Position numbers and translations under genes: made by a program. This document shows, in pieces, positions 621 through 52,853 of a stretch of DNA of 64,000 bases (positions are counted from its first letter, which is position 1; each line of letters starts with the position of its first letter). The stretch is from Nitrospira japonica. Its GTDB lineage: Bacteria > Nitrospirota > Nitrospiria > Nitrospirales > Nitrospiraceae. Below the pieces are notes generated by a model. That model saw nothing but the letters and a program-made list of their open reading frames with translations. It was not told the DNA's origin and did not search any database. The DNA lies in NCBI RefSeq assembly GCF_900169565.1, contig NZ_LT828648.1:372001-436000 (forward strand), given 5' to 3'.

Positions 621-2103
621 GGTGACTCTTCAACAGATATTTCGCCATGGTCGGCACCAGCGTGCGCGAGAGAATAAAGGACGCCATCATCGCGATGATG
701 ACCGCTTCAGCCATGGGTTTGAACAGGTAGCCGGCGACCCCGCCGAGTTCGAACAGCGGAATCCACACGATCGCGATACAGAGCGTGGCGACGAGCGTCG
801 GCACGACGATCTGATTGGCCGCGTCGATGATGGCCTGCTCGAGCGGCTTTCCCATTTCGATGTGGCGATCGATATTTTCGATCATCACGGTCGCATCGTC
901 GACCAAAATGCCGACGGCCAGCGCCAATCCGCCCAACGTCATCACATTGATCGTCTCTTCGAGCCAATGGAGGCCGATGATGGCGGTCAGAATCGACAGC
1001 GGGATCGAAGTCCATACGATGACCGTCGCCCTCCACGATCCGATCAGCAGGAGGACGATGAGACCGACGAGCGCGCCGGCGGTCGCCATTTCATGCACCA
1101 CGTCGAAGATCGAATCTTTGACGAAGGTCGAGGCATCGTCGAGAAGCCGGATCTTGACCCCCTCAGGGGAAATTTGCTCGGCACGCGGGATCATCTTCTT
1201 GATCCCGTCCACCACGTCCAAGGTCGAGGCCTCCGTGCTTTTCATCGCGACGATGATGACGGTTTGCTTGCCGTTCACCAATACCGCGTTTTGCTGCACG
1301 CGGCCCATGAGTTGTACCGTCGCCACATCGCGCAAATAGATGAACGCATTGCCGTCACGCTTGATCGGAATGTCGGGAAAATGGTCGATCTGCAACGGGG
1401 ACGCATTCGTCTGGACGATCCAATCGGTCGATTTGATCTTGATATCGCCGGACGGCAGCACGAGATATTGCTTCATCAGAACGTTATGGACGTCCGTCGG
1501 CGTGAGATTACGGGCGAGCAGTTTCTGTTGATCGAGGTTGACCATGACCTGCATGTCCTGCCCGCCGTAGGGGTGAGGCAGGACGATTCCCGGCACGGTC
1601 ACGAGAAGGGGACGGATTCGCATATAGGCCAGATTGTAGAGTTCCGCCGGCGTCATTCTGTCCGAGCTGATTTGCAGCATGGCCACCGGGATGGAGGACG
1701 GCGCGAGACGCATGACCATCGGGGGGGAAATATCGGGTGGCAGCGCCTTCACGACATTCTGCGCAATGCCTACGATATCCGCTTCGGCTCTCCCGACGTC
1801 GACTCCGTCCTGAAGAAAAATATTGGTGATGCTGCTGCCGTAATACGAGTGGCTGTGAATGTACTTGATGCCTTCGACAGTCGAGGTCAGAAAGCGTTCG
1901 AAGAGGTAGGTGATGCGTCCCTCGACCTGTTGCGGCAGCAGCCCGGAGTAGATCCAGACGACTGAGGTCACTGGAATCGTAATATTCGGGAAGACGTCGG
2001 TCGGCATGTGAAGCAACGTCTTCGTGCCCCACAGCACGATGAGAATGGACATGACGACGAACGTGTAGGGTCTTCGGAGGGCGATGAGAACGATTTGGTT
2101 CAT
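604..2103 (-). CDS. RND efflux permease, N-terminal half
   Basis: 499 residues, half the roughly 1040 usual for an RND permease. TM1 lies at about 9-29, a porter region follows with the family's YIHSHSYYGSS and DGVDVGRAEAD stretches, and TM2-TM6 run from about 330 to 490, including the GGLALAVGILVDDA motif with the intramembrane acidic residues of the proton relay. The protein stops exactly in the cytoplasmic loop between the two pseudo-repeats, and the second half continues in another frame from 620. No membrane-fusion or outer-membrane gene lies on the upstream side. Exported substrate cannot be read from sequence. Start at 2103 follows a weak CAGGTAG site. Confidence 0.85.
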   Translation of the reverse strand: MNQIVLIALRRPYTFVVMSILIVLWGTKTLLHMPTDVFPNITIPVTSVVWIYSGLLPQQVEGRITYLFERFLTSTVEGIKYIHSHSYYGSSITNIFLQDGVDVGRAEADIVGIAQNVVKALPPDISPPMVMRLAPSSIPVAMLQISSDRMTPAELYNLAYMRIRPLLVTVPGIVLPHPYGGQDMQVMVNLDQQKLLARNLTPTDVHNVLMKQYLVLPSGDIKIKSTDWIVQTNASPLQIDHFPDIPIKRDGNAFIYLRDVATVQLMGRVQQNAVLVNGKQTVIIVAMKSTEASTLDVVDGIKKMIPRAEQISPEGVKIRLLDDASTFVKDSIFDVVHEMATAGALVGLIVLLLIGSWRATVIVWTSIPLSILTAIIGLHWLEETINVMTLGGLALAVGILVDDATVMIENIDRHIEMGKPLEQAIIDAANQIVVPTLVATLCIAIVWIPLFELGGVAGYLFKPMAEAVIIAMMASFILSRTLVPTMAKYLLKSHHVEAA

Positions 2104-2566: not shown

Positions 2567-3394
2567 ATGATGGCGGGAATGAGAGCAAGCGGTTTGGCGG
2601 CGGTGTTGACCGTCGGACTTGCGGGAATTTGCACAGCCGGAGGGCCGAATGCAAGCGGCATGGCCACGGCGGTGGACCAGCCCGCCGTCGCGTCCCTGAC
2701 CGTCGCTGCGGCCCACAGTTTGAAACCGCTGTTTCAGGAGATTCTGCCCATTTTTGAGATCGAACACGGCGTGACGGTACAGGTGCTGTATGGTCCGTCA
2801 CAGACATTGCGTCAGCAAATTGAAAAAGGAGCACCGATCGACGTGTTCCTTCCCGAGGGAGTCGAAGAAGTTCGGAAGCTCCAAAAGAAGGGTCTGACGC
2901 TCAACGGCGGAGCTCAGACCTACGCACAGACCTCGCTCGTGCTCGTCATGTCCACCACCTCCCAAGCCGCCTCGGTGTCGTTTCGCGACGCGCTGCCCGA
3001 CCATGCCATCCGCGTCGCCCTCGTCGACCCCAAGACGTCGGCCATGGGTGAGGTGACCGCCCGGGCCTTGACCAAGGTCGACCCGGCCTCGCGGAGCCGT
3101 TCCCGGATCCTGCATGCACAACACAGCGACGACGTCATGAATCTGGTCAGCACCGGGGGGGCCGACGTGGGACTCGTCTATCGGGTCGATGCAATCAACA
3201 GCGGACAAGTCCGGATTATCGATGAGGCTCCGGCCGGCTCCGATCTCCCCGTTCAGTTCGGACACGCGGTCGTCTGGACATGCCGGGATTCGTCCCGGGA
3301 CGTCGCGGAACAGTTTTTCGACTTTATCATGAGTCCCCGGGTCCAAAAACTCCTGCTCAAGTACGGCTTCGACTCCATCCCTTCCAAAGGATAG
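2567..3394 (+). CDS. modA: Molybdate/tungstate-type ABC substrate-binding protein (ModA family)
   Basis: Periplasmic solute-binding protein, 275 residues, with an N-terminal export signal (GLAAVLTVGLAGICTAGG) and the ModA layout: LTVAAAHSLKPLFQEI, then GPSQTLRQQIEKGAPIDVFLP, a hinge near VALVDPKTSAMGE and a C-terminal FIMSPRVQKLLLKYGF. The family binds molybdate or tungstate oxyanions for ModBC. No permease or ATPase gene follows, so it is an orphan here or works with a distant transporter. The start is set at 2567 (or 2570) because GGAGG at 2557-2561 lies 5-8 bases upstream; an earlier ATG at 2555 overlaps that site. The exact ligand is inferred only from family. Confidence 0.85.
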   Translation: MMAGMRASGLAAVLTVGLAGICTAGGPNASGMATAVDQPAVASLTVAAAHSLKPLFQEILPIFEIEHGVTVQVLYGPSQTLRQQIEKGAPIDVFLPEGVEEVRKLQKKGLTLNGGAQTYAQTSLVLVMSTTSQAASVSFRDALPDHAIRVALVDPKTSAMGEVTARALTKVDPASRSRSRILHAQHSDDVMNLVSTGGADVGLVYRVDAINSGQVRIIDEAPAGSDLPVQFGHAVVWTCRDSSRDVAEQFFDFIMSPRVQKLLLKYGFDSIPSKG

Positions 3395-3432: not shown

Positions 3433-4149
3433 TCAGTCCTGGACGTAGAACCCGTTCAGGGTGTACGGGCCGAATCCGGAATTAGCCCCGCGAATGCGCA
3501 CCTCCACCACGTCGTGGACCCATGTGGACACGTTCCAGATCGTGCTGTGGTTGAGTTCGGACCAGTACCACCAGCTCCCGTCTGTTTTCTTGAACCAAAA
3601 CTGGATCGGCTGATCGCCGGCGACCCAAATCCACGGCAGGTCGAAGACTCTGGGCTTGTGGGACACCCGATCTTCGAGCCAGATCTTGATCCAATGGTCC
3701 TGCACGTGGGAGTGCATGACCCGCCGCTCATTAGTCCAATCCACGACCGGACAGGAGGCAGGCGTGCCTCGTCCGAACCCGCCTCCCAATCCGTCGCCCG
3801 GATCCGGCGTAAAACAATCCATGTCCGGATCTTCAAAGCTGAGATGAAAATGTCCATAGTTCATCGGCTCGACGTTGATATAGTCGTTGAAACACCGATG
3901 CCGATACGTCCAACAGGCGGCGTGCCCGTCGTTGCAAGGCTCGCGCTGGCCTGACGGGCTGATTCCCGTCGGCACGGCAAACGTAGTCCTGGCCTGGGCA
4001 TACACATTGGTCAGAGCAAAATGATTGTCCCAATCCACGTAACAGGTTCCCAGCCACTCGTGCGCATCTGCCGCGTGCTCCGTGAAGAACGTGAACGTCG
4101 GCAGCATGACGACGAGACCAAGGAGCATGTACCGTCCCATCTCCCGCAT
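3433..4149 (-). CDS. Secreted protein of unknown function, Trp/Cys-rich
   Basis: 238 residues beginning with a signal peptide (MLLGLVVMLPTFTFF, then a likely cut near ADAHE). The mature part is rich in Trp, Tyr, His and Asp, with scattered Cys (GTCYVDW, PCNDGHAACW, HRCF, MDCF, SCPVV) that could form disulfides. I recognise no domain; the late stretch of aromatic beta-type sequence could be a jelly-roll or lectin-like fold. GGAGG sits 8 bases before ATG 4149. The gene converges with modA and follows the lipoprotein gene ending at 4605 in the same direction, so the two may be co-transcribed. Confidence 0.7.
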   Translation of the reverse strand: MREMGRYMLLGLVVMLPTFTFFTEHAADAHEWLGTCYVDWDNHFALTNVYAQARTTFAVPTGISPSGQREPCNDGHAACWTYRHRCFNDYINVEPMNYGHFHLSFEDPDMDCFTPDPGDGLGGGFGRGTPASCPVVDWTNERRVMHSHVQDHWIKIWLEDRVSHKPRVFDLPWIWVAGDQPIQFWFKKTDGSWWYWSELNHSTIWNVSTWVHDVVEVRIRGANSGFGPYTLNGFYVQD

Positions 4150-4176
4150 GAATGCTTCCTCCCCGGTTAATGTGTC

Positions 4177-4605
4177 TCAATGCGTCCGCTTGAGTTCCTG
4201 AATGAGGGACGCGCGGCTCTGGACCAATGAGTCGCCGAGCTGCCGCATCGCCGTGTTCTTCTCTTCGGGTGCGAGTCCGGCCACGGCATGCAAATACTCG
4301 TGCACCAACGTCTGCCGTTCGGACTGCTTCCTCGCCTTGGCAACCTGCATACGCAAGCCGGCGAGATCCCGCTCCGGCGGGCGCGGCGTGACGGTCGCCG
4401 CAAGCTGCGCATCCATGAGACGGATTTGCTCGACCGTCGCGGGCCGCGGTTCCCCTGTCAATCGCCCCGGCCCGCCGAACGGATCCCCCGGTTGCGTGGG
4501 CGGTCCGGGCACGCATGCCGCAGCCAGACCGAGCAGAAGACACCCGCCCGTCATCACCACGCGAATGCCGACCTTTGTCACGAACAATGGAGAAGAATTG
4601 TGCAC
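4177..4605 (-). CDS. Small lipoprotein of unknown function
   Basis: 142 residues from a GTG start at 4605, supported by GAGGAG seven bases upstream. The N-terminus carries a lipoprotein signal (GGCLLLGLAAAC, lipobox LAAAC), followed by a Pro/Gly-rich linker (GPPTQPGDPFGG). A mostly helical, charged C-terminal part (about 55-140) has heptad-like spacing (EQIRLMDAQLAATV, LRMQVAKARKQSE). It is probably anchored in the outer membrane and helical. It lies 27 bp upstream of the secreted protein gene in the same direction. No family recognised. Confidence 0.65.
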   Translation of the reverse strand: MHNSSPLFVTKVGIRVVMTGGCLLLGLAAACVPGPPTQPGDPFGGPGRLTGEPRPATVEQIRLMDAQLAATVTPRPPERDLAGLRMQVAKARKQSERQTLVHEYLHAVAGLAPEEKNTAMRQLGDSLVQSRASLIQELKRTH

Positions 4606-51315: not shown

Positions 51316-51367
51316 GACGTGGTGAAGATGTGATTCGAACGATCCCGTGGAAAAAGGAGTGCTGCAT

Positions 51368-51772
51368 ATGAAATCAGAGCCGGAGCGAGCGGCGCACCGC
51401 CGGTTCGTACAGGCGTTGCAACATGAACATCTGATCTGTACCCGTCCGGACTGCGGAGGTCCGATGGACGTGGTCGATTTGACCGTGCATCATGCCGCCG
51501 TGAAGACGTATCAAGCCGAGTGCGAGCGATGCCATGCCGTCGAGCACATCACCGGCAAGGTGGATACCCATCCCTCCTGGGACATCGCCTCGATTACCCT
51601 GATGGCCGAGATGCATCTGTTACACGATCAGCCGGTTTGCCCCTTCGACGACACGCCCATCACGTTTACCTCCATGCCCAACCCTCGCCGCAAGGCCCGA
51701 TATCGCCTGTCGTGCTATTACTGCGGGCGACATACGGAGATGAACTGGCCTCCCCCCGAAGCCAAACGATAG
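51368..51772 (+). CDS. Small zinc-ribbon-type protein
   Basis: 134 residues from ATG 51368 (AAGGAG eight bases before). Four pairs of Cys: CTRPDCGG, CERCH, PVCPF and CYYCG, giving perhaps two zinc sites. No export signal. Between them are HHAAVKTYQAE and FTSMPNPRRKARYRLS, strand-like. No family name known to me; it could bind nucleic acid or act as a chaperone for zinc. It is the last gene in the run starting with kamA. Confidence 0.7.
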   Translation: MKSEPERAAHRRFVQALQHEHLICTRPDCGGPMDVVDLTVHHAAVKTYQAECERCHAVEHITGKVDTHPSWDIASITLMAEMHLLHDQPVCPFDDTPITFTSMPNPRRKARYRLSCYYCGRHTEMNWPPPEAKR

Positions 51773-52151
51773 GTCTCCGACATCACCGGAACGATCGGGA
51801 CTGGCGGCACCCGCTCCTCCCAAAAGAAAGCAGCGGTGAATCGGCCCAGAGAGGTTGCGGGCAAGCCGTGCTAATAGGTCTGCCGGAAACCGAGCGAGGT
51901 CTTTCTCAATCCTCACTCTATCATCAGATCATCGCATGAGCGGGCATCAGAGCCGTTTTGTCCTCCGGCGTTGCCGATATGGAGCGGCCCGTTGAAACGG
52001 GTGGCGAGGACTGTTCGCAGATCCGTTCGACGGCAGTCGGGACGGATCAAGTTCCGCAGCCAAGCGAAGCAGAGGCCTACGCCGGACTGAAACGGATCTG
52101 GCCTTGAGCGAAAGCGATGATCTGACGACCTTTACTTGCCGCTGGCCGTGC

Positions 52152-52237
52152 CCGTTGCGCTTCCAACGCAACGGCGTGGCCTGTACTGTTCGAATCGTTT
52201 CGATGAGTTTACAGGCCACGAACGGACGAGGCTTAGC
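52152..52237 (+). repeat. Two-hairpin repeat, copy A
   Basis: Hairpin 1: CCGTTGCG (52152-52159), loop CTTCCAA, CGCAACGG (52167-52174). Hairpin 2: GTGGCCTGTA (52176-52185) with TACAGGCCAC (52210-52219), inside it TCGAA (52190) with TTCGA (52199). Then AACGGACGAGGCTTAGCTGG. Shares loop, order and flanks with copy B, but stems differ. Confidence 0.65.
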
Positions 52238-52398
52238 TGGGTTCGCGCGGAGGTGGAGCGCGGCGAGGCTCGTGACGACGCTACTCTTGTCTTCTCACCC
52301 TCTCTCTCCCCGCTGCTGAAATCTACCGGGCGGGCAGCCAGGCGGAATCGTCCGCCGCCTTGCCGGAGAGGCCGGGACACAACTCACCGAAGCGAGAG

Positions 52399-52482
52399 GC
52401 GCTTGCTCTTCCATAGCAAGCGCGAAGACTGCACTGTTTGAGCCAGCCACTGGCGAGTTTGCAGGATTCAACGAGCGAGGTC
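52399..52482 (+). repeat. Two-hairpin repeat, copy B
   Basis: Hairpin 1: GCGCTTGCT (52399-52407), loop CTTCCAT, AGCAAGCGC (52415-52423). Hairpin 2: CTGCA (52429-52433) with TGCAG (52460-52464), inside it GCCAG with CTGGC (52442-52454). Then AACGAGCGAGGTCTAGTTGG. 248 bases from copy A in the same direction. Confidence 0.65.
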
Positions 52483-52529
52483 TAGTTGGGTGGCATCTCA
52501 GGTGCGCGGCGGAGATTCCGCCTGGCTGC

Positions 52530-52853
52530 TTACCGCCCAAACGCTTTTTTCAGCAACGGCTCCATCTCACCCTTAGCGGCCATCGGATCGAGGATGTCCG
52601 TGTCGCCATAAAATTGACCATCGATGAAGACCTTGGGCAGAGTGGGCCAATTCGTCATCTTGGTCAGGGCTTCGCGCTTCGCCGGCTGAGAGAGCACGTC
52701 GATCAGCTCATAGGGATAGCCGTACTTGTCGAAGAATTGCATGGTCTCCAGTGTAAAGCCGCACATCGGCATGGTCTTCGTGCCTTTACCGTAGATCAGG
52801 ATCTTGTTCGCGGCGATTTCTTGTTGGATTTCGTCCTGGATCGGATCTCCCAT
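52530..52853 (-). CDS. grxD: Monothiol glutaredoxin (Grx4/GrxD type)
   Basis: 107 residues. Active site C31-G-F-T, where CGFS is usual; the GSH/2Fe-2S-binding parts are kept: KGTKTMPMCGF, NWPTLPKVFIDGQF and GDTDIL. Carries a shared 2Fe-2S cluster between two subunits or with BolA. AAGGAGG directly before ATG. The bolA gene ends 10 bp upstream, matching the known GrxD-BolA pair. Confidence 0.93.
   Translation of the reverse strand: MGDPIQDEIQQEIAANKILIYGKGTKTMPMCGFTLETMQFFDKYGYPYELIDVLSQPAKREALTKMTNWPTLPKVFIDGQFYGDTDILDPMAAKGEMEPLLKKAFGR

Follow-up and report, generated by a model that had tools for sequence, protein, structure and literature searches.

Two folded copies beside grxD

The intergenic region at the 3' end of grxD in Nitrospira japonica contains two sequences that share short words and differ in the stems around them, which raises the question of what kind of element would keep its fold while its sequence changes. 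The window considered here is the whole stretch of DNA that was analysed, 64,000 nucleotides in length. An earlier description from the letters alone (the sequence-only reading) reported two copies 248 bp apart with a shared loop, inner words and tails, and all of these are present: the ACTGTT motif starts at 52185 in the copy that we designate W1 and at 52433 in W2, and the tails are AACGGACGAGG in W1 and AACGAGCGAGG in W2. It had further remarked that the stems differ on both sides yet stay paired, as is seen when the first stem of W1 (CCGTTGCG/CGCAACGG) is set against that of W2 (GCGCTTGCT/AGCAAGCGC), and the second (GTGGCCTGTA/TACAGGCCAC) against CTGCA/TGCAG. Both copies lie where it placed them (52152-52490), but the elements extend further and are accompanied by a third, related one, as listed below.

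51347..51772, + strand: 141-aa open reading frame without a Pfam match, the convergent left neighbour
51921..52128, + strand: type II element of the same architecture, directly left of W1; arms 51921-51935/52114-52128; minimum free energy -100.3 kcal/mol, z -4.7
52121..52262 (about), + strand: copy W1 (type I), with a degraded 5' basal arm; orthologue L228:4252-4393
52152..52174, + strand: W1 hairpin 1, loop CTTCCAA (52160-52166), from sequence and fold
52175..52220, + strand: W1 hairpin 2, internal loop ACTGTTCGA / GAGTT, from sequence, pattern match and fold
52334..52529, + strand: copy W2 (type I), the entire palindromic element, directly abutting the grxD stop codon; 16-bp perfect arms; orthologue L228 in congener G005
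52334..52349, + strand: W2 left outer arm (inverted repeat I3); this stem alone is a hairpin in congener G001
52399..52423, + strand: W2 hairpin 1, loop CTTCCAT (52408-52414), from sequence; covarying helix 5 of the 73-copy alignment (A3)
52424..52469, + strand: W2 hairpin 2, internal loop ACTGTTTGA (52433-52441) / GAGTT (52455-52459), from sequence and exact pattern match; helices 6-7 of A3
52514..52529, + strand: W2 right outer arm (inverted repeat I3), adjoining the minus-strand grxD end at 52530
52530..52853, - strand: grxD (glutaredoxin; Pfam PF00462, E 5e-16), its 3' end abutting W2

W2 is thus enclosed by a perfect 16-bp inverted repeat and measures about 196 bp in its entirety. Neither W1 nor W2 contains an open reading frame; both lie between genes, and a BolA-like gene comes after grxD in the window. 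The fold of W1 has a free energy of -54.6 kcal/mol (z -3.5), and that of W2, computed without the basal stem, does not stand out (z -1.1). The W1 and W2 pair is conserved in congener G005.

A family of covarying palindromes in the Nitrospiraceae

An exact pattern search found the two copies and further ones in two congeners, and the eight copies aligned share one architecture, which we call type I: hairpin 1 and hairpin 2 follow each other without a gap above a basal stem and a junction, and hairpin 2 contains a conserved internal loop in which ACTGTTYGA faces GAGTT. Double-sided changes occur in 18 of 42 pairs of this alignment, as against 1-3 pairs in slid versions of the structure, and the covariation score was reached by none of 500 shuffles. 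A covariance model built from these eight copies (R1) scores W2 at 142.6 bits (52369-52512) and W1 at 124.9 bits, the E-values of both carrying no evidential weight since they are among the building sequences. A search of the genome and its relatives with such a model, as the sequence-only reading had proposed, located a third type I copy in the same genome (C1:2506166-2506304) and matches in at least 48 of 175 genomes of the family and at least 10 of 22 genera, with 1-3 copies per genome; the large scan used stricter filters, so that its counts are lower bounds. R1 gave no match in 60 genomes from other families of the same order.

The 73 distinct matched copies, whose alignment, unlike that of the eight, was fitted to the model, show double changes in 36 of 42 pairs with 87.9% of cells paired (0 of 500 shuffles), compared with 14-24 double-change pairs in slid controls, kinship being only partly controlled. 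Covariation inside hairpins 1 and 2 is as strong as in the basal stem. Judged from these alignments, the similarity of the two copies is more than chance, because double-sided change affects 18 and 36 of the 42 pairs, respectively, and no shuffle did as well. W1 and W2 genuinely belong to an undescribed family of folded palindromes of about 200 bases that lie between Nitrospira genes. The view that selection acts on structure here, in a region with no protein, draws support from the covariation seen in dozens of relatives, and further copies were found both in this genome and beyond it. No Rfam family matches the elements at the gathering or a relaxed threshold, apart from one weak CRISPR-DR match (E 1.2) that we take as noise, and phage and plasmid collections gave no match.

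Individual copies depart from this plan. One in G003 (L175:1501-1675, minus strand) has hairpin 2 interrupted by a stretch beginning GGGGTGTCAGAGACTATTTTTAGGG, and at L217 in G172 (3001-3209 and 4037-4186) a type I copy carries an extra stem of about 60 nt in the apical loop of hairpin 2, a type II copy lying about 1 kb from it at the same locus.

A second type of element and the folded strand

The element directly left of W1 belongs to type II, in which a long stem is likewise topped by two adjoining hairpins, 1 and 2, and ACTGTTYGA faces (G/A)AGTTCC in hairpin 2. A covariance model from four type II copies (R2) matches it at 51950-52098, this copy being among the building sequences. With 18 candidates scored per genome, R2 matches were found in 90 of 172 genomes and 19 of 22 genera, reaching 17 in one genome. 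N. japonica itself has three type I and at least seven type II copies, numbers that rest on the searches and on 400 kb sampled evenly from the genome; one type II copy was found in that sample, which suggests about ten per genome. Covariation is again extensive, with double changes in 44 of 52 pairs (0 of 500 shuffles) as against 19-26 in slid controls, kinship being only partly controlled.

Mismatches within the stems indicate which strand folds, since the complement of a mild mismatch is a severe one. Counted over the type II columns that pair well, with weights by sequence cluster, G-U outnumbers A-C by 71 to 21.5, and G-A/A-G outnumbers C-U/U-C by 38 to 17; type I leans likewise (G-U 35.5, A-C 22.8). 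The plus strand as drawn is therefore the folding strand, clearly so for type II and with type I leaning the same way. Covariation and one favoured strand, as expected of a structured RNA, are thus both found; the asymmetry fits RNA best and is also compatible with single-stranded DNA.

Inheritance in place and different cores at one site

Clustering by right-hand gene places the type I copies at about two dozen loci, an estimate based on open reading frames rather than curated annotation. Retention across many species is seen at three of them: grxD, locus B (a 150-aa conserved gene without a Pfam match) and the region upstream of nadA. On a FastTree phylogeny of the cores, a single clade unites the grxD copies from genera g15 and g17, and those at nadA group with most copies at locus B, so that the copies are inherited in place. 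Several type I loci, L199, L206, L217 and L242 among them, adjoin genes that by eye resemble toxin-antitoxin components (PIN-, HepT-, VapB- and addiction-module-like).

The grxD clade does not include W2 or its G005 orthologue, which group instead with copies from other loci (L226, L221), and W1 lies beside that clade. Read most simply, W1 would be the original copy at grxD, and W2 would have come later, between W1 and the gene. Purely in-place compensation at grxD was rejected, as it is partly the effect of two subfamilies sharing one site; of the compensating stems originally proposed, the covariation stands, and part of the difference between the two copies is one of subfamily.

A congener without a core at this position (G001) has, after grxD, GGCAGCCGGGCGGA-GCG-TCCGCCCGGCTGCC and a T-rich stretch, a terminator-like hairpin with a 14-bp stem. 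There GGCAGCCGGGCGGAGCGTCCGCCCGGCTGCC stands alone after grxD, and in G000 and G005 the same stem is split by a core. G001 is hence a candidate empty site, with an assembly gap near on the same contig. Alternatively, G001 could have lost the core with the tips of the arms left behind, since the outer arms loosely share a consensus between unrelated loci; this consensus also weakens the idea, which we set aside, that the arms are purely host terminator stems. W2 has no clear following U-run on either strand, and the 14-bp hairpin of G001 is followed by TGTTGTTCT.

Relatives also differ in the palindrome that a given gap holds. Downstream of an ABC-2 permease, whose proteins are 98% identical between G171 and G169, the former has type I and the latter type II, and in G170 a third palindrome stands beside a type I remnant. 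In G160, G168 and G169 (L256, L262, L259) a different long hairpin (GAGGGCGGCTGTTATGCTCTTGTGCTCGCG...) fills the gap downstream of grxD.

Similar apices in Clostridia

A loose-pattern scan of genomes, which selected for the internal-loop words, extended the comparison beyond Nitrospira, its spread there being that among the matches listed. Two of these, both from Lachnospiraceae (L123:2675-2895 and L153 at about 830-1190, minus strand), have palindromic arms of at least 80 bp and folds of -117.5 and -229.5 kcal/mol, respectively. Their apex reads TTTGC-GTTG-stem-ACTGTTTGA-inner part-GAGTTT-stem-...TTTA-GCAAA, and the GTTG and TTTA-GC context lay outside the search pattern. Runs of A and T border both of them, as in bidirectional terminators, and the stem of L123 ends in A7/T7. 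Clostridium zeae, C. folliculivorans, C. yunnanense and C. manihotivorum contain a multicopy repeat with the same apex on a shorter stem (GGC-GTTA...ACTGTTCGA...GAGTTT...TTA-GCC), and about 20 copies are of a longer variant with about 400 nt conserved. An autonomous Clostridium element was considered and dropped, as the longer variant shows no common open reading frame. Among the matches listed, the multicopy Clostridium repeat, with the apex aactgtACTGTTCGAACGTAGTGAGTTTACAGtt on a long stem, occurs at L045 (motif at 4473, reverse strand), at L047, at L055 and at about 40 further loci.

These likenesses raise the prospect, which we regard as rather unlikely in its full form, of a cross-phylum class of palindromic elements with one apical recognition module (a GC-GTTG foot, the ACTGTTYGA / GAGTT hairpin and TTTA-GC) that would sit inside terminator-like gene-end hairpins, exchange cores at fixed sites and be moved by a putative enzyme reading a folded single strand; its branches would be Nitrospiraceae types I and II, L123, L153 and the Clostridium repeat. 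Pattern matches on viral contigs gave no convincing element, the examples checked looking like chance. One viral contig of an isolate genome has a lone hairpin-2-like sequence, GGCGAGCACTGTTCGAAGGCCGCAGGCCAAGTTGCGCAGCC (L409:60-115, minus strand), with a weak R2 match (E 0.65); a BLAST match to an Iodobacter plasmid spans only part of the query.

Competing explanations

Either of the possibilities offered by the sequence-only reading, an ncRNA or a folded mobile repeat, may still apply. The explanation that we favour, with confidence a little short of even, is that of a Nitrospiraceae family of non-autonomous, structure-defined intergenic palindromes of about 200 nt, of which one strand would fold, as single-stranded DNA or RNA, and whose apical module would be recognised in trans. 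It builds on what the sequences establish, namely the copies, their covariation, the folded strand, the locus-specific inheritance and the different cores at one site. The fold consists of a long basal stem and a junction followed by the two adjoining hairpins, the second with the conserved ACTGTTYGA/GAGTT internal loop, and the apical module is the part that a trans-acting factor would recognise. At grxD the module lies within the 3'-end hairpin of the gene, such that a hairpin remains a hairpin, and cores of different lineage are found at that site. Movement in trans, insertion into hairpin loops as a general rule, and tolerance of the elements because they preserve termination or the structure of the mRNA 3' end are the inferred parts of this proposal. 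The host origin of the arms is a weak point, because it comes from one locus and one gapped contig. Against a mobile repeat also count the lack of a transposase in association with the copies and of target-site duplications or strain-level insertion polymorphism among the data, and the persistence of copies through long vertical descent at grxD, at locus B and upstream of nadA suggests a function in place.

That retention, in locus-specific clades kept across species or genera, also favours the main rival, a possible though less probable one: a structured RNA with a host function, acting in trans as an ncRNA or associated with 3'-UTRs or terminators, which would have been duplicated to several loci and kept by selection. 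The excess of G-U over A-C and of purine-purine over pyrimidine mismatches on one strand would suit such an RNA, as would the conserved unpaired nucleotides of the loops and junction. It is less easily reconciled with the patchy presence of type I (48 of 175 genomes), with the absence of an orientation preference (right-hand gene on the minus strand at 13 clustered loci and on the plus strand at 9), with neighbour genes of no common class among type I loci, and with the fact that one and the same gap can hold type I, type II or another palindrome in close relatives.

Compensation of the stems mainly by mutation, in which quasi-palindromes are corrected through template switching during replication without selection, seems improbable. 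It would explain why the arms track each other where the sequence is otherwise free, and the left arm of grxD copies does look like the final grxD codons in inverted form (CCGCTGCTGAAA); it leaves unaccounted for the conserved unpaired nucleotides, the G-A mismatches in fixed places and the G-U bias, and hairpins 1 and 2 covary as strongly as the basal stem.

Slightly less credible still are REP/BIME elements in the strict sense, in which a RAYT (TnpA_REP) mobilises short palindromes, a link that the sequence-only reading had suggested checking. The elements are intergenic and palindromic with one folded strand, and Y1_Tnp genes occur in 8 of 9 genomes tested, yet none of 20 Y1_Tnp loci (about 1.5 kb of flank per side) has a type I or type II copy, so that no Y1 (HUH) transposase gene flanked by copies was found there. 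By eye, the foot tetranucleotides GTAG, GGAG and CGTC are not seen in the Nitrospira alignments, a GTTG foot being present in the two Lachnospiraceae relatives. REP units are, moreover, 20-40 bp long with many copies (PMC3733652, PMC6006769), as against about 200 nt and few copies here.

Chance similarity of two intrinsic terminators, which the convergent intergenic region might invite, is refuted by dozens of covarying homologues. Two further candidates were rejected: an integron attC site, as L223 and L227 do not keep AAC/GTT where GTTGGGT resembles the core site, and protein coding, as copy lengths differ by non-multiples of three.

Significance and comparison with known systems

The family adds a covarying structure to the nitrite-oxidising Nitrospira, a lineage with few described RNA or repeat elements, and its conserved apex motif ties it to Clostridia palindromes of at least 80 bp that have no Rfam model. 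Should the apex module serve as a recognition site, a new hairpin-targeting system of mobility or processing would be implied; should the element be an RNA, it would be one that is both widespread and uncharacterised. The covariance models make either reading testable.

The elements resemble REP/BIME sequences with RAYT/TnpA_REP in being intergenic imperfect palindromes with one folded strand, and some GTAG repeats sit within longer palindromes (PMC3733652). They differ in their length, in the two abutting hairpins on a long stem, in a copy number of roughly 1-20 and in having no RAYT beside the copies. Like HEARO, the IscB omega RNA and other large mobile-element RNAs in Rfam, they are structured and dispersed, but they match no Rfam family and no nuclease open reading frame recurs among their neighbours. 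Hairpins and terminators are known landing sites: some insertion sequences target the loops of palindromes, and group IIC introns are found near terminators. Unlike these, the Nitrospira element is itself a hairpin, with no open reading frame and no recognised intron domains. The ERIC, BOX and RUP intergenic palindromic repeats, which are modular, non-coding and strongly folding, of 100-200 bp and moderate copy number, are set apart by description, the Nitrospira elements differing from them in sequence, lineage and architecture and holding their primary sequence mainly in unpaired loops.
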